DNA from: Ulota crispa
Taxonomy: Eukaryota; Streptophyta; Bryopsida; Orthotrichales; Orthotrichaceae
DNA length: 64,000 bases
Direction: 5' to 3'
Assembly (NCBI GenBank): GCA_963920765.1
Contig: OY987246.1
Coordinates: 16,736,868-16,800,867, forward strand
How positions within the stretch are numbered: the stretch's first letter is position 1; every line of letters starts with the position of its first letter. A program made the position numbers and the translations under genes. Of the stretch, positions 772 to 58,681 are shown piece after piece. The notes beneath the pieces are model-generated. The model made no database searches, was not told the DNA's origin, and saw only the letters and a list, made by a program, of their open reading frames with translations.

Positions 772-970
772 GAAAGAGAAATTTTACGGATACCCTTGAA
801 GTTTGAAGTTTGCAATATTTGTATAGATATCCCTGGTTTTTTGACAAATATCTTTGTGGTAATTTTTAAGCAATTGTTTGATGTGCTAGTCACTTCTTTT
901 TTGACCAATGTTGGATAAGGGAGTGCAATGGAACAAAACAGAAGCAACTTGCACACAAAGGAAGGAGGGT
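772..970 (+). mobile_element. Truncated Mutator-like MITE copy
   Basis: This is the left part of the same family as the copies at 46776-47093 and 63281-63603. Shared phrases include GATACCC-TTGAAGTTTG, GATATCCCTGG, ATTTTTAAGC and GACCAATGTTGGA with the spacing of the other copies. The right inverted terminus (TTGCAAACTTCAAGGGTATC) is absent, so it looks truncated after the middle. No flanking target duplication is seen. Confidence 0.6.
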
Positions 971-3639
971 TTGGAGTCTGGACCGAGCAACAAGATTAGA
1001 GCCGTGCAATAGGGTTTGTAGAAAATTTGAGCTCAAGCACCTCAAAAATCCCTTTACAACTTTAATCTAAGGTATTTGTTTTCATTTTACAAGGATAAAG
1101 TGACCTACATCCCAAAACGCAAGGAGATAAGGAAAAAATGGATAAAGTTGGATAGAATTGTCAACATGTGCACGTTCATTCAGAAACTATACTAACAGTA
1201 GTAAACTTTGGCTGTTTCATTCATTTTTCTGTATTTTTTTAGTGTTACGTTAGCTAGTGACAATTTGAAGTAAGATTTAACTTAGGCAATTTCTGGCCAA
1301 AAAAAAACCCTGCTTTAACCTGCCACGAGTCAAAATTGGCGTACGAGATTTGCTCCCTCAATTTCAACTAACCAATAGCCTATATTTTCTTTCAAAAGCC
1401 CACTCAATTTGTTCAACAATGTCAATTACAACTAGCCATAAATTTGACCATTCATGATTAATCTATTTGTGTTTTCAAACTTGTCTTAAATTTAGATACA
1501 AGCGGTTTATCCTATTATCATTGGGCCTTAATTCAAATATTAATTTAAAAATTTACAATACACCGAGAGTCATGATTATGATGTCATTTAAAAGATAATC
1601 AAATCAAGATTTTGTATCAAGTTCCAAATTCCTAAATAAGTGAAGTTTGAGTTAGTTATTAAGGTTTCAATGAGGTAAGATCAAGGTTTCGCTCAAATTT
1701 GAAATTGCCCTATCATCACTTCCTTATCACTTCTTTCAAGGTTTTTATTGTCATACATGATCATATTTTGTCATTTTCATTTTTGAACTTCTTCCTTTCT
1801 TTGACCTTTGTGGTCATCCATAAGTGCTATCTTAGTTGACAAATTTTAATTGGTTTTAGTATTTTGCAACTAACATTGCTATAACTAAGGCGTTGGGGCA
1901 ATAAATTGTATATTTAACTAAGGTCTTCATAGCTAATCCGCTATATCTTTTGCAAATTTTGGTCAAATGGAACAAAAAGTGCACTACTAGTAAAGGACTC
2001 TAAGACCTTTTTTATGATACTTGTAAATTTGGATTTGAAACTAAACCCTAAAATATATGAATTTTTGAAGATGGAGAAGTGATAAAAGGGGCGGAATGAT
2101 AATAGGGTAAACTACATGTAGTTACATTTCTTAAAAATAAGCAAAAGAATGGAGGACATAACACCAAGTTTAGTGCATCCATGGTAAAATTGGTATTTTG
2201 CCATTGCAATTGTATGCTAGGCTCATGATGTTTTTTTTATTTTTACAAAGCTATACTTTGTCTCATGTTCGTCCACGTTCCTCAAAACCCTTAACCCGTA
2301 AACGTTAGAAAGGCCCTTTGCAACCAGTACAATACATGGTATTTTTCTTGTATTTGGAATGGATCCACACCTCTACTACATTTAAGATCAACAAAGAAAT
2401 TGGAATATAGATAAACGCAGTTCTAGTGAACTATTTGAGATCCCAAGTTAAAATTTCTTATTGGTAGCAAATGCCAGATATATGGCAACGTATCTACTAT
2501 GCCCTCCTGACATTTAGGGGTTAGTATCCTTTGCAAAACTTGAAGATATTTGCTTAACCAGGTTTTTTTAGCTAGCATTAGTTATAAGGAAATTTCCTTG
2601 CGTTGAACTTTCACCGTAACAGTCACATTTTGATTAATTTCCATGACTTTTGTATACATACCAATTCTACTTCCTCCACTTGGCAATCAAAACCCACTTT
2701 CTCCAACAATCCAATGACAACCATTGCTCTAAACACCAATTCTCTTTACACATTGCTCCTGTGTTCATGTTCCCATACTTTGTTGAATCATAGTGCAGAG
2801 GACCACCAAATTACAAATACTTTTAACAAAAGATAACCTAATTGCATCATTCAAATGATTTCAGTCTAGACAAACCAAAACATTAGAAATTGTACTACCA
2901 AATCCTCTTTAATTTGAAATAAAATTTTAGGATAAAGTTTCCAGAATTTGAAATAATAGTCCACACACATACATATAGATGAACTGTCTATCCCTATCCA
3001 AAGAACACACAATGTCCAGATATGGGAATTCACCATAATGGTTGGTTTTGCCATTCTACCCCTTTAAAATATGAAAAAAAACATGAAAAATAGAAAAAGC
3101 TGCTTCTCATCACTAGTGCATAATGTTTTGGGATATCCATAATGTATGAAAGTATTGTCAGAATGTCGGCATAATGTAAGGAAGTGTCAGTGGAGGCTCA
3201 GATGCAGAGTTTTCGTGAAAGTTTCCAAAAGCTTACACTGTTTTCAATTGGTAAAATGAAAGAAAAATAATAATGGCAATACCCTGCACATGGCACAGCA
3301 CAAAAGCTTCCCATTATGAATTTATCTGTGGCTTTGTAATTTTTCTACATCATTATAAAGTGGCCATTTTTTTGATCTTATGTATATGGAGGCATCTCAA
3401 ATTCTTCACTTATTTTGCCTTGGGGATAAAAACACGTCTCTAGTGTTTGTAAATGTGGCAAAACATCCTCAAAAATTGTGCCCAATTTTTTTAGGGACTT
3501 GCTCAAGCAAAACCTCCATGTTGTTAACGGGGCATTTTGAGTTAAAGTTTGATGTTGTACATTGTCTATATGCCAAGCCTACCTAACTCATACATATTTT
3601 CTGCAAAATATAAGATGTTTTGAGAGTCGAATGCTTTTA

Positions 3640-4060
3640 GGAGGTGGATGCCTTTAGAATCTCCTACTTTAGACCAAAGGCAAGGTCTTACTGACATACA
3701 AGACCATGATAGAAGTGCGCTAGCATTAGGAAAAATATGGGGCCCCAATAAGGCCCTAAGTTTGGGGGTCCTTAGTCATGGGAACCTAATTCCCAATAAA
3801 ACCATGCACAAGTTGAGGTGGCATCATTGATGCCACCTCAGCTTTTTCAAAAATTTTATTAAAAAAAAAACTGTTTTATTTTTAAGATTTTTATTTTTAT
3901 TTTTAAGATTTTTTTAATTCAAATTTTCCGGCCATCAGCAAGCTGGTTCCCCACATCGGGAACCAAAAGAATGGGGGCTGCCAGTTCGTTTTTAAAGGCC
4001 TTCTGAAGGCCCCATAATCATCAAAAAGTTTTGATGATTAGTGCCAAATAAGCCTTCATC
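3640..4060. repeat. Hairpin-rich repeat with 14-bp perfect inverted arms
   Basis: A near-perfect palindrome lies at about 3814-3840: the arm TGAGGTGGCATCA is followed by its reverse complement TGATGCCACCTCA. It sits between GGGACC/GGGGCC-rich phrases that recur in inverted form (CATGGGAACCTAATTCCC; CATCGGGAACC). It is probably the remnant of a foldback or MITE-like element. No coding content is seen. Confidence 0.45.
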
Positions 4061-4700
4061 ATATTGCTTGTTTGTTTTTTTTCTAAATTTTGATTCGAGG
4101 CAATTTTTCCAAATGGCACATTTTCAATCTTTTACCATGTGTTCAACTTTTGTGCGCATTTATCTAAAAGGATGAACATCAACGTGCACGCAATGGTGGC
4201 AACATTCACAAAAATCTTGTGCCCACCTTGAGGTGTTGTGTTAACACACCTATGTGTTGCTTTAGCAAAAAATAATAATAAGACTACAAGTAAAATTGAA
4301 CATCATAGTGTTCGACTAAGGGAGTGCTATTTCATGAGCAGTGAGCCATGAGCAGGGAATATTGGTCAAATAATAATTCCACTTATAACCACGTACATAG
4401 GGCCCTGTAATTGTGCATTTTAAACTAACATCTCTTAAAAAAAACTCGTTATTTTTGTAATTATTTCAATGATTCTAAGTTGAGAATCTGTTCTTGTCCA
4501 CAAAATCTTGAATCCCCATTCATTGCTCACCATTTTACACTCACCAAATAGTGTCGTCTGCCCAAACTAATGAAAAACTTTGAAAGAGCCTGGATCGGTG
4601 GAGATGTTCTTATGGCGTAAGATATTTGCTTGCTGTCTGCCAGGGCGCCAACGTTCGTGCTCTGATGTTGGTGAGACCCAGGTGATATAAGTATGATGCG

Positions 4701-24973: not shown

Positions 24974-25020
24974 CCCCTAAATGTCCAAGAGGACAAAAAT
25001 TGTCCTTTTCATGCTAGAAA
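24974..25020 (+). mobile_element. Solo left terminus of TTAA-type element
   Basis: TTAA (24970-24973) is followed by CCCCTAAATGTCCAAGAGG. This matches the left terminus class of the piggyBac-like elements downstream. No matching right end was found before the next element begins at 25870. The body to about 25100 may belong to it, so the true extent is unknown. Confidence 0.5.
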
Positions 25021-25832
25021 AACACCTCGAGGGTGGAAAAATATTTTTTTTTCAAATTTTTTTCTTGAAAGTGGTTAGAAAGATGTGCCATATCACTGAA
25101 TGCCAAAATTAGCTGCTCTCAACACCAATTTGTAAAGAGATGTACAAGGTCCCGCGCTACCTTTTTTGTGAGGGCAGCATACACTATTATCTTTTTCTTC
25201 TTTTGAGGAGAATATTATCTCTCGTGAACACATGCCACAAGCTGTTCACTACACACAGTGCACTTTCCTTGATCTAAGCCTTGGGTTGGCCATGGGTTTA
25301 GGGTCCGTGGGGTTTATTTTTTTATTTTTCTATTTTTTTAAGGATGGAAAACACAAGGACCGAGAGTAGGTGCAAAAACTCGCAAGTGGCCACCCAGACT
25401 GGTGCAAGCTCTAGAATAATTTAACCCCCTCTTGCAAAAAGATTCCCAGGTTTATTTAGTCCGTATTATTGTACTTTACATTGTTCATTACTCTTTCTCA
25501 ATAAACATTCCAGGTTTGAAACTATTTTTGGTCACATGTTTGTCTTTCATCGAATCTGACTTGTTGAAATCAAGTTATTGTGGACATTTGCAAAATTTTC
25601 ATAGACAGGTTACTAGTTTAGAGTCTTGGACTTTAGGTCGTAGTCCTTTATAAAACCCCTCCCACACATTTAATTTTTCAACAAATTCTAAAGTGATTAC
25701 ATATTTGAAAAGTCAACTCAAGGGGACAAAATGTACTAGAATTTGAAAAGTAGATTATTCTTATTTCATGATTTTAATCCATGTCAAATGTAATTTAGCA
25801 CAAATGAGTATGCCATATTTATTCACTTTTAT

Positions 25833-25856
25833 CAACATCATCAACATCATCAACAT
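25833..25856 (+). repeat. (ATCAACATC)n microsatellite
   Basis: Three to four units of ATCAACATC lie just outside the left end of the 25870 element. Confidence 0.85.
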
Positions 25857-25869
25857 CTTTGTGGTATTG

Positions 25870-26803
25870 CCCCTAAAGGACTAAGCCTTTTTTTTTGTCA
25901 AAATCACTAAAAATTGTTACTTCTAGGAGATGAGTAAGAAGGTAGGTTCTTTTTTCTTTTTTGGGAAATCCAACCATAGGATCTTGCCTTAGACTAGAAG
26001 AGGTACTTCTGGGAAAAAAATCAAATCATTCTAGATAGAGATGATGGAGATATTTACATCTGAAGTGAAAATTAAGGTTTTTTTCTGTGCTATCCAAAAA
26101 ATTTAGAAGCCTTTGACCACTCTTACATGAAAAAAATTACTCTACACAAAGTTGGGGTTTATTTTTTCCATGTAGAGGACCAAGTTAGGCACGTGTGGGA
26201 GAATTTTCAAATCAATTGGAACTATGCAACACATGGGAAATAAATAGCAAGTAAGAAAGAAGTAGAGAATGAGTCAAATCACTAAATTGTTAAGAATTTA
26301 TTATTGAAATGAAAATTGCAAATCCCAATAGTTACAATGTTGTGATAAACAATCTACTTCCTTAGGTTTAGTTTTTTTTTCCAAAATGTTAAAAATTGTG
26401 GAAAATAAAGAACTTCAAAGTTTATTTTAGAATATAGAATTCATAATTGCCCACAAACTAAAACATCTCATAACTTTCATCTCATTGATTGAAATAGAAT
26501 GATTCAAAGCTTCCCGTGTGTAAAAAAATCTAAAGAACCAATTATAAAATTTTAATTTTAGAAAAATGGAAATTTTAAAGAAGTTTTTGGGCTGCCTAGA
26601 TTGCCCTCCCACCCTCAAGCAGCAAAAATTCTTGCATAACTTCTTTGTCAAATGTCAGAATGAGGAAAAAATTAGATGCTTACATAGATCTTTGAATTCC
26701 CCATCTTCCATAAAAGTTTCAGAAAATTACAAAAAGTAGTTTAGCCATAGGTACATGCCCAAAATCTCCATTGTCCTCCAAAGGGACAACAGTCCTTTAG
26801 GGG
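25870..26803 (-). mobile_element. piggyBac-like MITE B, 934 bp
   Basis: The left end CCCCTAAAGGACTAAGCC and the right end AGTCCTTTAGGGG form 13-bp terminal inverted repeats. The right side is bordered by TTAA; the left flank is ATTG, so that copy of the target site has decayed or the end is displaced. The interior, read on the minus strand, matches element E (49152-50066): GATGAAAGTTATGAG then GGGCAATT, and GGAAGCTTT.AATCATTCT. No transposase ORF is present. Non-autonomous member of the 900-bp family, in inverted orientation to E. Confidence 0.8.
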
Positions 26804-47237: not shown

Positions 47238-48124
47238 CCCCTAAAGCCCCAAAGTCCCCTTGGGGGACTTTTAGGATTTTGGGTAGGCTTTTGTGACCTC
47301 AAATTTTTACATAATTTTCTGAAACATTTTAAGAGTGTGTAAGAATGTATAAGGTTTGTGGGATGCAAAAAATTATGTGATTGTGTCTCATGGTTCAAAA
47401 GTTATGGGCTTTTTTTGGCCAAAAGTAGTTCAAGGGGCAGCTTGAACAAGGGGAATAATGTTGACTTTGGAGGGGGGGAGCAAGGAGAGGTTGCCACATG
47501 TTGCTCTCGTGGTCCCCATTACTTTGTCATTGGCCCCCTTTCATTTCCAATTAGGAGGTCAAATTGGGCTTTGGGAGCTTTTAAGTTTTAGAGATTTTGA
47601 GTTTTTTAACTTTCTTTTTCTTTGACAATTGAAGTACATGTTTATCTTCAAACTTGTTGTTTGGATTTTCCATATCTAAAAACTTGCGGTGGGAAACTTC
47701 ACTCAAAAATGTCATAGTGTATTGGCAAAGCTTGTTATCTACTAGCATTGCAATACATTTTAGGATGTGTTGTGTGTCTTTGATTGCCTTGAAAATTGGT
47801 AGACATATGTCTAACTTGATTTCCTATAAGATAAAATTGCATCTTCAAGGTTTGTAGTGCAAAGAAATTAGCAAATGGTGGTCAAAGCCATCTTAAATTT
47901 TTGGGCACCATGGAAAAAAAAACTTCTCTCTTGATGTGGTCATAAATTTCAATTTGTGAGGTCAAATGTCACAAAAATTTTAGTGATTATTTTTCTACAA
48001 GTGCATTACAAGATTCTATGGTTAGATTTTCAAGAACAACATTTTGTTGAAATTTTTGATGAATGCAACAATAGGACCAGTTTTGAGTGGTTTTTGGCAA
48101 AAAATGGCCTTGGTAGTTTAGGGG
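47238..48124 (+). mobile_element. piggyBac-like MITE C, 887 bp
   Basis: TTAA (47234-47237) is followed by CCCCTAAAGCCCC, and the right end TAGTTTAGGGG is followed by TTAA (48125-48128). Interior parts resemble element E (AAAAGTTATGGGCTTTTTTT, GGGCAGCTTG). Nothing over 80 codons, so non-autonomous. The right TTAA is shared with the next element. Confidence 0.82.
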
Positions 48125-48128
48125 TTAA

Positions 48129-48368
48129 CCCTTGAGTGCCTTGCCCAAATTCATGTTGCGTTGGACCTCATTGCAAACAATTTAGCGCCGCAAGTTCAAA
48201 ATAACATCTTGAAGAGTTAGCCATCGGTATTGCAGAAGGCTTAGGATCCGCATATGTATGAAAAGTTTGGTAAGCATTCATTGCACAAAGCAAAAGATTA
48301 TAATGATCAAACTCAACAAATTGTTGAATATGGAGAGGCTAGATTTGGGGCGCTGGGATGCTCAAGGG
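48129..48368 (+). mobile_element. TTAA-flanked mini-element D, 240 bp
   Basis: The left end CCCTTGAGTGCC and the right end GGATGCTCAAGGG give 8-bp perfect inverted tips. TTAA borders both sides (48125-48128 and 48369-48372). It differs from its neighbours in having CCCTTGAG rather than CCCCTAAA, like the CCCCTCAAGG class. Its left TTAA is the right TTAA of element C. Confidence 0.7.
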
Positions 48369-49151
48369 TTAACACTCTTAAAAATTTGTAAACCAACTTT
48401 TTGCTTAAGTTCTTATATGAGAATCTTTTTGTTTATGTAAGGTTCTGTTTTAATAAAATGAAAACTAGAAAATAAAGAACTTTGCAATGCATGTATACAC
48501 CAATTTGCAAAGATAATTTGGAAGTATTTGTGCACCATACTTTTGCAATTTTGAGTACAAAGTAAACTATAGAAAATTACCTGATAGTATTTTAACTCTT
48601 ACTTTAGCACCTTCATACTCAATTTCTTATATACCAATACAATTTTATTCTCATTTTTTGAATTTTTAGCAATGAGTGTTTAATTATTAAAATAATAATA
48701 ATAATACTGAAGCTTCAAGTAAGATTAATAATACAAATTGTGAAACTTTTTATTTATTTTTTGGAGTGTAGCACATGCAAAAGTCTAGGTTGAAATACGT
48801 AGGTTGAGGGTTTCACGCACAAGCAATCTCAAATTTGTGCGACTAGTTACTTAGGTTTTGTCTTCATTTCCAATGGTTTAATCATGAATATGCTCTTGCT
48901 TGAGGCCCTTAGCTTGCGTAAATATTGTTTGAAGAACAAACTATGACTTATCCTTTGTGTTGGCAGGAGTGGCAGTTACATAATGTGATACCACATCGCA
49001 ATTTCTATTGTTACATTCACAAGTATGAGATCAACCAAAAATGCAAAAGATTTTGGGCAAGCAACATTTACGTGAGAAAACAAGAAGGCCAAACATCTAA
49101 GTGGTAAAACCCTGATGATCTTTGCAAAAGTAATGTGTATAGTGACTTTAA

Positions 49152-50066
49152 CCCCTAAAAGACTAGACCCCCTTTTTTAGAAACATAGCAATTTTGGGCA
49201 CGTACTTGTGATACGAGCTTTTCATATATTAGGCTAAAATTTTAATGGAATGTGGGGACAAGGTTTATCTTTCATATGCACTAAATTTCATTACGTTTGG
49301 AATTATGAGTAAGAAGTTATGGCCTAATATGTTGCTTTTTACATTTGGCGGGCAGCTCGGGCAGTTTTGTAAAAATCACTTTTTTCAAAAACAAAATTTT
49401 TAAGTGGGTTTAGGAGATTTTTGTGAATGTAGGAAGCTTTCAATCATTCTTTTTGGATCAACAAGATGAAAGTTATGAGGATTTTTTTGTTTGCGGGCAA
49501 TTTTGGATTCTCTACTCCAAAATAAACTTTGAAGTCCTTTATTTTACTCAATTTTCAACATTTTGGAAAAAAAACAAAACTAAAGGATGAATATTTTTTA
49601 TGACAACATTATGACCATTGGGATAGGCATCTTTCAATTCCATAATTATATTCTTAACAACTTAGTGTTTTGAATTATTCTCTACTTCTTTTTACTTATT
49701 AATTTTTTTCCAAATGTTATACAACTCCAAATGATTTGAAACTTTTTGACATGTACTTTACTTAGGTGGAATAAGGAATTTAGAGAAGCACCACCCACAT
49801 GGCCTTTTTTCCTTAAAAATTTCACCTTCTAAATGGTAGCTGCCCAATTTTTCACAAAGATGTTTTTGAATATTCAAACCATTCTAACGTCCAATCCATG
49901 TGATGAAAAACCCTGAATTTTTTTCCACATCTTTTAAAACCATTCTTCTACAAGATCCTATAGTCACATATGCATAAAAATGTTTTTTTTTTCAAATTTG
50001 GTTGATGTTCTAAAAATGACAGTTTTGAAGAGTTTTTGGTGAAAACTTTGCTTGGTCCTTTAGGGG
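49152..50066 (+). mobile_element. piggyBac-like MITE E, 915 bp
   Basis: TTAA (49148-49151) is followed by CCCCTAAAAGACTAG, and the right end GGTCCTTTAGGGG is followed by TTAT (one base from TTAA). Interior homology to element B on the opposite strand runs for several hundred bases with conserved order, defining a 0.9-kb family. No transposase-like ORF is seen. Confidence 0.82.
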
Positions 50067-50599
50067 TTATGAAAAAAAATAATCAACTCACATATGGTCC
50101 AAGATAATGAATTATAAAAGAAGATTGCAATCTTAGTAAACATTCTGTTCAAGTTGAAGAATAAAGGCTTCCATCGATTTCTTAAAGTTTCATTATTCTC
50201 AGTCCCCGTAAAGCTGCAGTTTCAGAGTACTCCTCTTCATGTGGTTTAGTGTGGTAGTTGGATTAGTATAACTACGAATGCAAAGAATTCCACTAGCACT
50301 TTTAAATGCTGACACGTGGAATTATTTATTAGTTTCATCTCGTCCTCAAGTAAGCTATAGGTAATTCTGAGTGGAATAAGTTTAGAGTCAATGTATGAAT
50401 GGCCACTTGTGCTGCGCCCGCGTCCCAACTCCCAAGTCCCATAGAATTCTCAAAATCTAATTGATTCAAAATTGCTAGATTTTTTTGGGCTTTCAGTTCT
50501 AGAATTATCCCTAAAATTCATACCTTGTTTTCTAATTATGTGTCTTTTTGGAATTCTTGAAAATAAGTGCAAAAATATTTAAATGTGCCGACTAGTTAA

Positions 50600-51452
50600 C
50601 CCTTAAAGGTCTGTGCATCCAAAAAGTGGATGCGCCTTGGTCAACCTTAATTGTAGTTTTCAAACTATTAATTTTTGGCACGTGGTTCAATTAAAGAAAA
50701 CAAAGCTTGACAAGTTTCCTTTCTATTCAATCTAATTTTTTTGAAAAATTTCAAAAATTGAAAGAGTTATTGTCATTGAAAACTCCAAGTGTTAGAATCC
50801 AAATAACACAATATGGTGTGTTTTTCATTCATATTTTATACTCTTTAAATGCATTAAAAAGTTGAACTACAAAATCATGTTTCTCATTCTGCCATTCATT
50901 TATAATAGAAATTATAGATTTTTTAAGTATATATTCTAATTGATATGATTTTATTTCCACATTTAGTTTTAAAAAACACAATAATTCAAACTTTCCATTA
51001 AGCTTATTGAAAAAAATAAAGTAAATAGATAATGAATGTGTCTTCCAACAAAAAAATATCAAGATTTCATAAATTGATTAAATATAAGGATGAATTTGGT
51101 TTGATAGGCAAATTTTACTTTAGATTCTTTGTTGTGGTTGTTTTGGGTGTAAAAAATAAAATAACCCATTAAAAAAATTTCACACTTATCCTTAATGCTA
51201 CTTGTACCTCTTGAAAAAATTCAAGTAATTTGGATTTTTTGCTATTTTAACTTATTTATGTTCATTTTTTGAAAAGAAAATGAAAACAATTACATTTTTT
51301 CATGAAACAAATTGAAATTTCTTGCAGTGATATATCATTCAAAGTTTCAAGCAATAAAAATACAAAACTATTGTTTGCACACACTTTAAAAGGCAAAATT
51401 GAGCTTAGACATGAAGTTTGACCATTTCAAAATGGATCAAATCCTTTAGGGG
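50600..51452 (+). mobile_element. piggyBac-like MITE F, 853 bp
   Basis: TTAA (50596-50599) is followed by CCCTTAAAGGTCTG, and the right end ATCCTTTAGGGG is followed by TTAA (51453-51456). The tips match as CCCYTAAAGG. The interior is very AT-rich without coding sequence and shows no obvious homology to B or E by eye. Confidence 0.78.
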
Positions 51453-51495
51453 TTAATCTGGTTCTTGCAAACTCAAGACCAAACACAATTCTTAA

Positions 51496-52136
51496 CCCCT
51501 CAAGGCCCATGCACTTTCTTGAGTATCTCAAAATGTGTTTTTGGATGAACAAAATGTCAACATTTTGATAAGTTGCATTAATTTTTTAAAATTGTAACCA
51601 TACAAATTCAAATTAGATATGTTATAGAACACATAGGAAAAGAAAACACAACAATATCACTTATGGATTGAAAGATCATAACATTTACCAAGAGGGTGTT
51701 AAAATTGTGAAAGTGATTTGAAGTCATTCAATCCTCTTTTCACATCTCAAATTTAAATTTGAGGATACCAAAAAAATATGAGTATGTAAAGTTCAACATG
51801 TGTAACCCTAATCAATCTACGGCTTCTTAAAATCTACTCTACAACTTTTTAAATTAAGTTTATAATGTGATTGTTTCTCCAAGTTCTAGTGTACTTGAGG
51901 CTCATTTCCAAGAGCTCTCATTGCTAGAAAGTGAAGATTTGCAATGGACACCCTTGCACAAAATCTTAAATAGAAAAATCATAATTATTCATTTTCAAAA
52001 TCAAACTTTTGATACTAAAACAAGACTTTAACAAGAACTTTAAAAAAAAATCATTGTAATTAATCATGAAGAAAATTTAGGCATCCCAAATTACAAACTA
52101 GGAGGGACAATTTTGGTCCTCTCAGGCCTTGAGGGG
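51496..52136 (+). mobile_element. piggyBac-like MITE G, 641 bp
   Basis: TTAA (51492-51495) is followed by CCCCTCAAGGCCCATG. The right end CAGGCCTTGAGGGG gives 12-bp inverted tips and is followed by TCAA (one base from TTAA). The interior aligns collinearly with element I (TTGAGTATCTCAAAAT, ACACAACAAT.TCA.TTATGG, AGAGGGTGTTAAAATTG, ACACCCTTGCAC). Non-autonomous. Confidence 0.82.
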
Positions 52137-52363
52137 TCAAAGGATGGAGCTACTATAATACATACTATGTATGCTGTTATATGACTTGCATATGCTACCA
52201 ACAAAAAGTTTTAATTTGGAATCTTGTCTACCAAGAACAACATTGATCTATATTCTAACTTCTTTGTTGATCTCAAATGTAATAAAGGTGTGGATGCACT
52301 CCAAATACAAGAGAAATGCCCTATATTGTATTGGTTGCAAAGGGCTGCTTTGTCCTTTAGGGG
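52137..52363 (+). mobile_element. Right-end fragment K of TTAA-type element
   Basis: It ends TTTGTCCTTTAGGGG followed by TTAA (52364-52367). The body (TGCTACCAA.AAAAA, CAACTTCTTTGTTGATCTCA, GGTGTGGAT.CA.TCCAAATA) matches 58495-58681, so both are right halves of one family. The left terminus is missing because element G directly abuts it. Confidence 0.72.
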
Positions 52364-52986
52364 TTAAGGTAGTCACTTCAGAAACCGCACTAAGTGTTTA
52401 GAACAGTTCATGTAGAGCTGTCCATAATCATGCATTTGGCTTTTTGAATGGATCACATGATGTCAATTTAGTAACTGTGCTTGTGTCTACAGGGTTTAAG
52501 AAATGCAACTTACTGTTGGGAATTGTTGTTGAGTAAAACTTAGGTATACTTCATATGAAAATGAACAAATATGTGCTTTCAATCATGATTTAGAATTAGA
52601 AAATAGAATGGGGTGCTTGTGCTCTTTAAGACCCTTATTTGAGCATTCTCAACTTTGTGATGGTTGTTTTTTGGACCCATGTGATCTATTTACAAGCTAC
52701 CTTGAAACCATGAGTGCCATAATCTATGGTCAAGAATAGCTACCTATGCCCTTTTTGGTTAAATAAATTGTAGTTAATTTAGAGCATCTCTAACGTTACT
52801 CTCCACCTGCCCAAATATTGGGATGTGGTTTGGCCGGACTCAAAAACCAGGCCTAATGGGGATACACCACCCACCCCTACAATTTTTGAGGCCTCTTCAA
52901 GCGTGACCTTTCACATGCCAATTTTTGGTGCGTTCTCCAAATTCTAGCGAGCTTGATTATCACTTTTTTTTTGGAGGTTAGATCTC

Positions 52987-53395
52987 TAAGGTAGCCACAC
53001 CCATACGCATGGATGTCCCCATGGGATTCACGTAACACATTGTCAATGAACAATGGTTATGGGTGACAAAGTGATGGCTGTGGGTGACAAAGTGATGGTT
53101 ATAAGTAACAAAGTGGTGGTTTTGGGTGACTAACATGATAACTTTGAGTGCCCCATTTTACTATTTAAGAACCAGTATGCATTGTTTTTAGCATCTCTTA
53201 CACACAACTATACAATTTTAGTGATTTTGGACTTTGAAGAATCTTTGTGAACAAATGTTTGCAATTGGAACTTTGAAATTGATGCCAACATATTTGGCTT
53301 CCTCTAATAACTTGACAATATTATTTTCAAAGTTCAACAATTGATTTTCCTACTCCAAAATCCTTAGTTTGATGCTTATGGGTACTGCTACCTTA
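52987..53395. mobile_element. Diverged TAAGGTAG-terminus element
   Basis: The left end TAAGGTAGCCACACCCATAC and the right end TGCTTATGGGTACTGCTACC-TTA are imperfect inverted repeats related to the 45100 and 60086 elements (GTCCCCAT near the left end is shared). It contains a short 23-bp tandem array at about 53056-53150 (GTGATGG.T.TGGGTGACAAA, four copies). Confidence 0.6.
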
Positions 53396-53399
53396 CCTC

Positions 53400-54133
53400 C
53401 CAAGTAATAGAATCAACCAAGTTCACAAGATGTCAGGGCCAACTCCAAGTGGGACAAGGAAGTTACAGCCCCACTAGCAACCTTTGGCATGCATGTTTAG
53501 CTACGAACTAGTGTGGCCCTACGCCATTGGCCCAATTTTCACCCCCCATGCCATCTCCTCATGCCACCTGTGGTTAAACTTGTCCTCTACTTTATTTTTA
53601 AGTGGACATCCAAATTTTACTTTAGTTAAACTTGTACTCTACCCTATTTTTACATAAAACTTGTCTTTGGCCAATCAATAAATTTATAAAATTTTAATCC
53701 ATAAAAAACTTTGAAATTCAATAACTTTCTCAGTGTAGGTCCAAATGCCACCAAACTAAGCTTGTGCACCCCTCCTTGCCAAGAGCTTTCCAAAGATACC
53801 AAGCATGCAATGGGGGACACATGGTCCGGGAGATCTCAATGTGACAAACAAACAAACAAACAACCTGATTTAAGCTATAGATGTTGGCTCTTGGGCCAAT
53901 TGTTGCCATGGCCAACTAAATTGTGGCACTAGTTCTATTATGGCGCCTTCCATGTGGCAACTAAGGTTGGAGATGCTCTGATACCAACTCAAATTTTTTG
54001 CTTTAAATGGCCCTAGAACTCTTTCTTCCATTTGCCTTTTAGTCACTAAAAATATCCCTAAATTGCCAAGGTGGCATGATTTTCCCACAAATGCCCTCTT
54101 TCCCTTAGGTGGACGGTTCATGAGCCTCCTACC
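53400..54133. other. Intergenic, no gene seen
   Basis: Contains an (ACAA)n run at about 53846-53865. At about 54122-54136 it carries the phrase GCCTCCTACCTTA, the right terminus of a TAAGGTAGGAGGC-type element whose left end I could not place. No coding region is recognised. Confidence 0.4.
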
Positions 54134-54137
54134 TTAA

Positions 54138-54210
54138 CCCCTCAATGCCCCAAGTATCACAAACTACACGGAAAAGGGAGCCAAATTTTTGTTGATGGGG
54201 CGTTGAGGGG
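54138..54210 (+). mobile_element. Minimal TTAA-flanked element H, 73 bp
   Basis: TTAA (54134-54137) and TTAA (54211-54214) flank CCCCTCAATGCCCC ... GGGGCGTTGAGGGG, inverted at 13 of 14 positions. It is little more than two termini, so it is probably an internal-deletion derivative. Its right TTAA is also the left TTAA of element I. Confidence 0.8.
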
Positions 54211-54214
54211 TTAA

Positions 54215-54860
54215 CCCCTAAACTCCCTTAGTATTTTTGAGTATCTCAAAATTTGCTTGAAAGTGAACAAAATGTTGGCATTTTGATCAATTTTATCAAA
54301 TTTTTTTTGAAGTGCAACCGTACAAATTGAAAGTAGACATGTTATAGATTACATAGGAAAAGAAATCACAACAATTTCATTTATGGATTGAAATATTATG
54401 ATGTTTGATCATGAGGGTGTTAAAATTGCAGAAGTGATTTGAAGTCTTTCAATCCTCTTTTTGCATCTCAAACCTAAAGTTGAGAGTACCAAAAAAACAT
54501 GAGTATGTAAAGTATAACATGCACAACCCTAATCAGTTTACGGCTTCTCAAAATCTATTCTATAGTTTTTTAAATTGAAATTGTCAGTGTGATTTTTTCT
54601 CCAAGTTCTAGTGTTCTTGAGGCTCATTTCCAAGAGCCTTCAACACTAGAAAGTGAAGATTTGCAATGGACACCCTTGCACTAAATCTTGAATAGACAAT
54701 CACATTAATTCATTTTTAAAATCAGACTTTTGATGCTATATCAAGACTTCAATGAGAATTTAAAATAATAACAACCACTAAAAAAAATCTTGAACAAACA
54801 TTGCGCATGTCTGAATAAAAATGAGAGGGGCACGATTTGAGCCCCTTGGGCGTTGAGGGG
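54215..54860 (+). mobile_element. piggyBac-like MITE I, 646 bp
   Basis: It begins CCCCTAAACTCCCTTAG directly after the TTAA shared with H and ends TTGGGCGTTGAGGGG followed by TTAT. Collinear with element G across the whole interior. The left tip is of the CTAAA type and the right tip of the CTCAA type, so it may be a hybrid or diverged copy. No transposase. Confidence 0.8.
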
Positions 54861-56459: not shown

Positions 56460-58490
56460 AATAAATAAATAAATCTAAAAGTGTAATTATCCGAAACTAA
56501 CACAGCAGGAGAGTTTAAGAAGCATTTCACAAGGTCATAAAAGACAATGAAGTATTAATCCCTAACTCCCTTTACACTAAAAAATGTATAAAAGTGTAAG
56601 ACCCTAAAAAAAACATGAACCCGCTAAAAAACATAAGATCCCGTGGGGCCACAACCAAACGAGTTAATCCCAGCATCTGACTACCATTCTTCATGTGACA
56701 ATGAGTAACTTACATTCTCACAAAGATTAGAATGTGGAGAGTTTCAGAAGAGGGGGCTATAAGGCCATTATTGTCAAAGGTTAGGTAAATCAACATGGTA
56801 TCCATGATTGGGCATAGAAAAGTCAAGAGATAGATTTGATTGTAGATTTGGTTTTCTTACACATCCGTTTAGAGCTTACAATGATATGGTTGAGAAGCAT
56901 TGTTTAATTCAGCAAAAATTCCACCAAATAACGTTTAGAATTTACAAAATGAATGTGAAAATGAGTTGAAATAATTATGAAAATCACATTTGAGATAATC
57001 GGCTGAAAGTGAACAACTGTTTTGGTCAAGTAGTATACTGGGGGGACCACTCATATTCCTCTATATCGGAGGGAGCGTTGCATATTGGTCTCTTTGCTAA
57101 AACAAGAACGCATTAAAAAGTTTGAGAATAGTTGACAAGGTAGAATTAGTGCTCTTTAATCTCTTAAATGATCAAAGAATGCTTCATTTTCCTCGAAAAA
57201 AAAGAGAAAGAAAAAACAAACAAGAAGAACAAGTGGTGACTTTCATACAAAAACTGCAGTCTATAATCTACTAGACATTTTCATATGATTGACTTCTATT
57301 GTAGTAAGCAATTTTTGTAAATGAATAAGAAAACCACAAACTCAAAAGTTCTTCTAAAATTGAGTGTGAATTGAATATTAAGTAAGTTATCTCAATTATT
57401 GACCTGGCACTAGTAATTCTACCTTGTACTAATTCAAGATAAAGGTGAATTAGCAAGGCACGCTACGCTAGCCAGGGGATTTGTAGCAATATAAGTTAAT
57501 TCAATATACCATGAGCTACAATATTTAAATTCTATCTCTAATATTACGACTCAAGTGGCCCAAATTTCAAGGAGATTTTGCAAACATCCAACTCAACTAT
57601 AGATTCTAAAAAGGATGTCATCTTATGGAGGCTCTACCACCAAATTGCTAATGGAGGGGTGATGAAAGGTTGTTGCTAAAACCCTACTTGAAGAATAAAG
57701 GCACAAGGCATGCCATATTTCACACTAATTAAGCAAAATTCACCCAATTTAGTGTGGAAGAGTCTTGCACTACTATAGTCTGATAGCAGATTTGGCTACC
57801 AACTACCGAATGATATAATTTTTACAAAAAACATGATTTGGCATTAAAAAAATTGATTTTATGAAGATTCAGCAATTTCATTAAAAAATGTTATTATTTG
57901 GCAATTAGCTTGATACAAAGTTTGATATTGATTGAGCCCTCCTAAAATCACCCTAGACTTTTCAAAATTAGCTTATAATGCTTAGAATTTTAATTTTTAG
58001 TTTTGTTTGACATTAGACACTTTTGAAAAATGGTATATGAAATAATTTAGCTAAATTTAGAAAGATTATTTTATGTCAAATTTGCTATCAACCTACAATA
58101 TTCAAAATTGGCATTAGTTGAAACAACATGTGTAGGATGTTAGCATAAATTCTTTTTACTATGAGTTCATAGTGTGATGTTCTAACCACAATGGTTTTTT
58201 TAGGTTTTTCTGATACCTTGTTGCTCAAGGTCATATTTGAAGGGTCTTTTTTTGTGTTGTGAACATTTCTAAGGTAAAACATATTGGCACCCTTTTCACT
58301 TTTAAGACCCTTGCAAAGAAAATGTTTTGGAAGCCTTTGTAGCACAAATATTGCTAAAATAATAAATGAGTCCCTCAGAAATTTGATGAATGACTTTGGA
58401 TGATTTGAGAGAATATAATGGCGTCTCCAAGGACAAGCATGACCTAAGATGTGTTGCCTTAAACGTCCATAAGGCATAGTATATACGCTA
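56460..58490. other. Intergenic, no gene seen
   Basis: AT-rich, with short frames lacking family features and a simple (AAAT)n run near 56455-56475. Nothing further could be supported. Confidence 0.5.
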
Positions 58491-58494
58491 ACGT

Positions 58495-58681
58495 ATAATT
58501 GTCATTTGCTACCAATAAAAAAAATTAGTTTGGGATCTCAAGTAACTCATTAGAACTGCATTGATCTATTCTCCAACTTCTTTGTTGATCTCAAATGTAA
58601 TAGAGGTGTGGATCCATTCCAAATACAAGAAAAATACTCCATATAGTACTGGTCGGAGCGGCACGCTCAGACGTTTAGGGG
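58495..58681 (+). mobile_element. Right-end fragment L of TTAA-type element
   Basis: Homologous to 52137-52363 throughout and ends GACGTTTAGGGG followed by TTAA (58682-58685). The left terminus was not found upstream within 1 kb. Confidence 0.7.

Follow-up and report, generated by a model that had tools for sequence, protein, structure and literature searches.

MITE-like piggyBac elements flanked by TTAA, and related transposase genes, in a land plant genome

What are the short elements with inverted CCC tips that crowd positions 47238–54860 of a 64,000-nucleotide stretch of contig OY987246.1 (this whole stretch is hereafter the window), and what put them there? TTAA flanks and CCC tips point to piggyBac, a superfamily best known from animals, and the first-pass annotation, made from the letters alone, had accordingly proposed a piggyBac-like cluster living as miniature inverted-repeat transposable elements (MITEs) in a plant, either as an undescribed plant lineage or as a convergent one. 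Our analysis indicates that the elements are almost certainly MITE-like members of several piggyBac families, inserted at TTAA by a transposase of the same genome, which belongs to a land plant and likely to a moss. The TTAA flanks, the CCC tips and the presence of PF13843 transposases bordered by tips of this kind all uphold the piggyBac identity. This is thus a true piggyBac population: a known superfamily in a scarcely described host and at an unusual scale, not something categorically new.

Within the window, the decamer CCCCTMAARG occurs exactly 8 times where 0.36 occurrences are expected, and TTAA followed by the decamer with up to two mismatches occurs 19 times against an expectation of 1.94; none of 100 shuffles reached either count. 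Read base by base, eight elements (B–I; Table 1) display two tips, and element A the left tip only. TTAA stands outside the left tip in 8 of these 9 elements, largely as had been claimed, but the ATTG of B, three bases off, is an exception absent from the first-pass annotation. Outside the right tip TTAA is found in 5 of 8 elements, and the exceptions (E and I with TTAT, G with TCAA), each one base off, are the ones previously given. The neighbours C and D, as well as H and I, abut across a single common TTAA. The termini are inverted as described; the exact decamer, however, is present at only some tips, others being variants such as CCCTTGAGTG and CCCCTAAACT. The left tip of F is CCCTTAAAGG, and the inverted tips of B are perfect over 13 bp. 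Elements B–I span 73–934 bp and by their coordinates total 5,189 bp, or 8.1% of the window, while 47238–54860 contains no open reading frame (ORF) of 150 amino acids (aa) or more from stop to stop. These short, non-coding elements, one of which (E) has at least 39 further copies and another of which (B) has one end in common with transposase-bearing elements, fit the MITE way of life that had been suggested.

As a pattern that holds TTAA cannot test TTAA, the inner 16 bases of the tip (CCCCTAAAGGACCAAG) were counted without it. They occur 3,614 times genome-wide, 3,038 of these (84%) directly after TTAA, where about 1% would be expected by chance (calculated at the window G+C content of 35.8%); the reversed control gave 0 in both counts. 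The outer T is kept in 3,038 of 3,178 copies with TAA (95.6%) and the inner T in 3,038 of 3,165 copies with T.AA (96.0%). The outer T being as constant as the inner one, duplication of TA only is ruled out, so that the earlier argument from the constancy of the outer T and A holds, and the genome-wide flanks show TTAA and not TA. Flanks were also counted with TTAA outside the pattern in a 207-kb sample, from which eight loci picked by TTAA (L001–L008) and five loci nested in longer ones were removed: CCCCTMAARG follows TTAA in 5 of 10 cases and CCCYTNAWNGMC in 23 of 36. Some of the remaining cases are one base off (ATAA, TTCA, TTGA, CTAA); others lie elsewhere within transposase loci, where they are not necessarily tips.

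The gain of bases upon insertion is observed directly at one insertion, a 947-bp element (locus L003, 1505–2451) with TTAA on both sides that is inserted inside another repeat. Its flanks were joined without the element and without one TTAA and then aligned to relatives of the repeat. The joined flanks match L008 at 76% and nine more copies (L054–L062) at 82–84%, gap-free at the junction throughout; a gap-free junction in 10 out of 10 uninterrupted relatives means that the insertion gained the element plus 4 bp. In this search 40 of 261 first-look candidates were scored; one was the left flank of L003 itself, and the remaining 39 cross the junction in their query range, nine of them having been read. 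These data bear on the possibility that the elements are Tc1/mariner-type MITEs with a TA duplication, in which the outer T and A would belong to the element or reflect a weak preference. TA is contained in TTAA, and Tc1/mariner MITEs are common in plants according to a survey (PMC12550479), but outer and inner T are equally constant, the empty-site gain is of four bases and not two, and the tips frame PF13843 genes, which makes this explanation exceedingly improbable.

A search of the genome with the PF13843 profile (piggyBac transposase, DDE_Tnp_1_7), in which 116 of 528 first-look candidates were scored, so that its counts are a lower bound, returned at least 120 matches, all above the curated cut-off (best E 1.3e-73) and spread over contigs C1–C11. 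A search reaching 1.5 kb out from the transposase domains of 30 loci found hardly any tips, since the elements extend further; 12 loci were therefore read further out, over 6.5–8 kb. In 4 of the 12 (L039, L040, L041 and L043) the transposase is framed by both tips, a direct observation which agrees with the prediction of a DDE_Tnp_1_7 transposase bordered by the same kind of tips in the same genome, the search having been aimed at PF13843. L039 (1367–6385) and L040 (1401–6418) are 90.5% identical across 5.0 kb with the transposase inside, and at either end their homology stops no more than one base from the flanking TTAA, the left flank of L040 being TTCA. L041 (1400–6493) and L043 (971–6708) likewise possess a tip at each end and the transposase between; the tips of L043 (TTAA, then CCCCTAAATGCC) closely resemble the one found in window element A. 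Overall, 7 of the 8 flanks of these four copies, which are 5.0–5.7 kb long, are TTAA.

Window element B provides a second link, also read directly from the sequence: over its first 351–363 bp, from the tip onward, it matches four further transposase-bearing elements (L044–L047) at their 3' ends (71–78%), and the matching tip there is CCCCTAAARGA with TTAA before it. The start of B also matches an element near L042, beyond the 3' tip of that transposase (73%). Kolobok and Sola types use TTAA as well, and TTAA is hence not unique to piggyBac; with a transposase search confined to PF13843, another superfamily of this kind could have made the elements, the piggyBac transposases being merely nearby. 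We consider this very unlikely, given that matching tips enclose PF13843 genes in four copies, two of which cease to be homologous at TTAA, and that the end of B is homologous to the ends of L044–L047.

The encoded proteins resemble known piggyBac transposases in their core. In an alignment of the 30 best-scoring loci and L050, the three catalytic columns, which we take to be D268, D346 and D447 of piggyBac, hold aspartate in 28, 23 and 26 of the 31 sequences, asparagine being the commonest replacement; a strict motif pattern for the third aspartate had matched in 0 of 30 loci, being too tight, and the alignment was used in its place. Of 30 loci, 17 have a C-terminal cysteine-rich finger pattern 3' of the domain, interrupted by a stop in 3 of them, and in the other 13 it was not found. 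The ORF at 2528–3958 of L050 (476 aa) matches PF13843 over 340 of 349 positions (E 8e-60) and, among solved structures, piggyBac (PDB 6x67, E 4e-20) and piggyBat (9c0f, E 6e-17). The transposases are therefore true piggyBac homologues, and a convergent origin is not borne out.

Several observations nevertheless weigh against movement of these elements into TTAA by transposases of this genome. The target in the uninterrupted relatives of the L003 host repeat is CCAA in 9 of 10 and CTAA in 1 of 10, and TTAA in none, so the host copy presumably turned into TTAA before the insertion. Of the 12 loci followed outward, 7 show a tip at the 3' end only (L042, L044–L047, L049 and L050), that of L049 coming after TTGA, and L048 has no framing tips in 6.5 kb. 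Element B matched 4 of 30 transposase loci (L025, L026, L034 and L038), and as 5' ends of L044–L047 were not found on reading further out, B is tied to its transposase-bearing relatives by one end only. No transposase combining an intact frame, the finger and both tips was seen, and stops lie inside 110 of the 120 PF13843 matches listed, the 10 stop-free ones including several that are partial. As for the missing 5' ends of the seven single-tipped loci, they may extend further, have decayed more strongly or have disappeared.

The stops in these genes bear on age, as do the MITEs. A search with element E, in which 40 matches were scored of 4,509 first-look candidates, yielded as its best 40 element E and 39 further copies of full or almost full length, 89–91% identical to it. 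The four copies L008 and L064–L066 all have TTAA on both sides and flanks that are all different, and E departs from their majority at 47 of 898 sites, 18 of which are C>T or G>A. With copies at most 91% identical, the burst of the E family was not recent. The invasion is old, although families other than E may have been active more recently. By eye, and uncounted, TAG and TGA appear more frequent than TAA among the internal stops of the transposases; such stops, together with the aspartate-to-asparagine changes, would fit C-to-T decay of methylated DNA.

The scale of the population is best appreciated genome-wide. In the 274.8-Mb genome TTAACCCCTMAARG occurs 8,864 + 8,797 = 17,661 times and the same pattern reversed 8 + 3 times, whereas the looser TTAA+CCCYTNANNG (TTAACCCYTNANNG) occurs 25,390 + 25,307 = 50,697 times against 275 + 260 = 535 for the reversed control. 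These counts are of tips, not of elements, and would correspond to about 25,000 elements if each complete element has two tips. In this respect the window is representative, with 5 exact occurrences of TTAACCCCTMAARG where the genome density predicts 4.1; extrapolated roughly from this single window, the elements would make up about 8% of the genome.

The host can be placed from the assembly itself. The LEAFY DNA-binding domain has two exon-sized matches in the genome, together one gene, the second of which reads KPKMRDYVHCY; the aspartate at that LEAFY position is presumably the mark of moss type II. Site 312 is reported to be one of three type-defining LFY sites, with type II in Bryopsida, in PMC6588583, which also reports one type II LFY gene in a liverwort; PMC8742948 assigns mosses to type II, and liverworts and tracheophytes to type I. 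With a LEAFY gene in the genome and a PPR-repeat ORF in the window, the host is a land plant and, judged by its sequence, most likely a bryopsid moss. The stretch that separates the LEAFY exons holds an element of 239 bp flanked by TTAA left and right, presumably within an intron; it is seen in two loci (L051 995–1233, equivalent to L052 2407–2645) and was counted once. Derivation of the tips or transposases from an animal or fungal contaminant, which could be imagined for a superfamily best known from animals, has next to no chance given this position between LEAFY exons, the spread of PF13843 over contigs C1–C11 and the PPR-repeat gene in the window.

The features of the window are compiled in Table 1.

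Table 1. Tip-bearing elements and fragments in the window
Feature	Position	Strand	Length	Left side	Right side	Remarks
Third-family element	2295..2520	-	226 bp	TTAA, then CCCGTAAACG	CCCCTAAATG tip, TTAG	Two-tipped
Element A	24974..25298	+		TTAA, then CCCCTAAATG		End given is the limit of homology
Element B	25870..26803	+	934 bp	ATTG	TTAA	Non-autonomous piggyBac
Element C	47238..48124	+	887 bp	TTAA	TTAA	
Element D	48129..48368	+	240 bp	TTAA (common with C)	TTAA	Tips CCCTTGAG
Element E	49152..50066	+	915 bp	TTAA	TTAT	MITE
Element F	50600..51452	+	853 bp	TTAA	TTAA	
Element G	51496..52136	+	641 bp	TTAA	TCAA	
Third-family right tip	52161..52363	+	tip and about 200 bp		TTAA	
Element H	54138..54210	+	73 bp	TTAA	TTAA	Minimal
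Element I	54215..54860	+	646 bp	TTAA (common with H)	TTAT	
Third-family fragment	58469..58681	+			CCCCTAAACG (minus-strand reading), then TTAA	

Relatives were recognized for several of them. Element A matches an element in L046 at 77%, and no clean right end of A was found in the window sequence read from its left tip at 24974. B has a relative in L005 (83% across 938 of 942 positions), and G and I, 79% alike, belong to one family. The left end of the third-family piece at 52161..52363 was not found; its relatives lie at the two other third-family positions of the table and in L040. Element H, barely more than two tips, has a counterpart of 71 bp at L039 1125–1195, with ATAA on its left. Automatic pairing of tips also joined L002 1785–2396, L008 771–1229, L041 6293–6493, L043 3921–6708, L044 2313–6280, L048 6062–6429 and window 24974–26803, none of which was counted as an element. 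Near the transposases a repeat of about 400 bp (L043 1980–2385, also L044, L045 and L047) occurs in both orientations and matches itself in reverse; it is possibly a separate hairpin repeat.

Taken as a piggyBac system, the population would have worked as follows. A piggyBac transposase (DDE_Tnp_1_7, with three aspartates and a cysteine-rich finger), encoded by the 5.0–5.7-kb elements of the same genome, would recognize CCCYTNANNG tips common to the MITEs and the transposase-bearing elements, and elements would be cut out and pasted into TTAA, leaving each insertion flanked by TTAA. The MITEs would have been moved in trans by those transposases, and by analogy with the known piggyBac mechanism cut-and-paste would proceed via TTAA hairpins with seamless excision. 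This activity has probably ended or nearly ended.

Whether the lineage is undescribed, as had been considered, has a mixed answer. We found no description of native moss piggyBac among the open-access papers that our searches listed, judged by titles and abstract openings, which is weak evidence of absence, and both matches to 'piggybac' in a moss genome paper (PMC10619864) are the word 'piggybacking'. Yet plant piggyBac has already been noted: piggyBac-like elements in plants are mentioned in passing (PMC8086355, PMC10813416), a fern genome table lists 1,230 piggyBac copies at 0.00% of the genome (PMC6890710), a grass annotation table lists one copy, and a review on plants, with reference to a general classification, counts piggyBac as a class II superfamily. 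A MITE survey of 207 plant genomes, including four bryophytes, contains neither 'piggyBac' nor 'TTAA' in its main text (PMC12550479).

One gene deserves separate mention. L048 (G000:C1:1178200-1184700) harbours at about 891–4300 a piggyBac-type gene that is apparently intron-split: its matched parts (about 2510–2941 and 3212–3796) are stop-free, GTAAG closes the first, the VDE, TDN and GIDVVDQ motifs are kept, and a finger-like stretch lies downstream in another frame. From these features it is a candidate for a domesticated gene.

We tentatively advance a wider interpretation, to which we give somewhat less than an even chance: mosses, or some of them, may have harboured piggyBac for a long time, as a lineage with many families which grew into a major DNA-transposon part of the genome, which went unnoticed in plant MITE catalogues because these have no piggyBac class, and which left behind at least one gene, L048, that may be domesticated. 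If true, more than 50,000 recognizable tips, and roughly 8% of the DNA should the window be typical, would belong to a superfamily that is a workhorse of animal genetics and is scarcely described in land plants in the literature searched. Tens of thousands of piggyBac tips in a plant genome suggest that a piggyBac class should be added to the classification of plant MITEs, and would offer a natural plant system for the study of transposition into TTAA, of how it is silenced and of its possible domestication.

Among known systems, the plant MITE groups of PMC12550479 are similarly numerous, non-coding and provided with inverted ends, but the main text of that survey has no piggyBac or TTAA among them. 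The piggyBac-derived MITEs of animals, for instance those of corals (PMC2872659), are also non-coding and tied to piggyBac and TTAA, although the host here is a land plant. With piggyBac (6x67/6x68) and piggyBat (9c0f) the present transposases share a homologous core, the three aspartates and the cysteine-rich finger, and with the piggyBac superfamily at large the elements share CCC tips and TTAA duplication; what sets them apart from known piggyBac is a plant host, the 5.0–5.7 kb of the four two-tipped transposase-bearing copies seen, and the coexistence in one genome of many families, mostly decayed.

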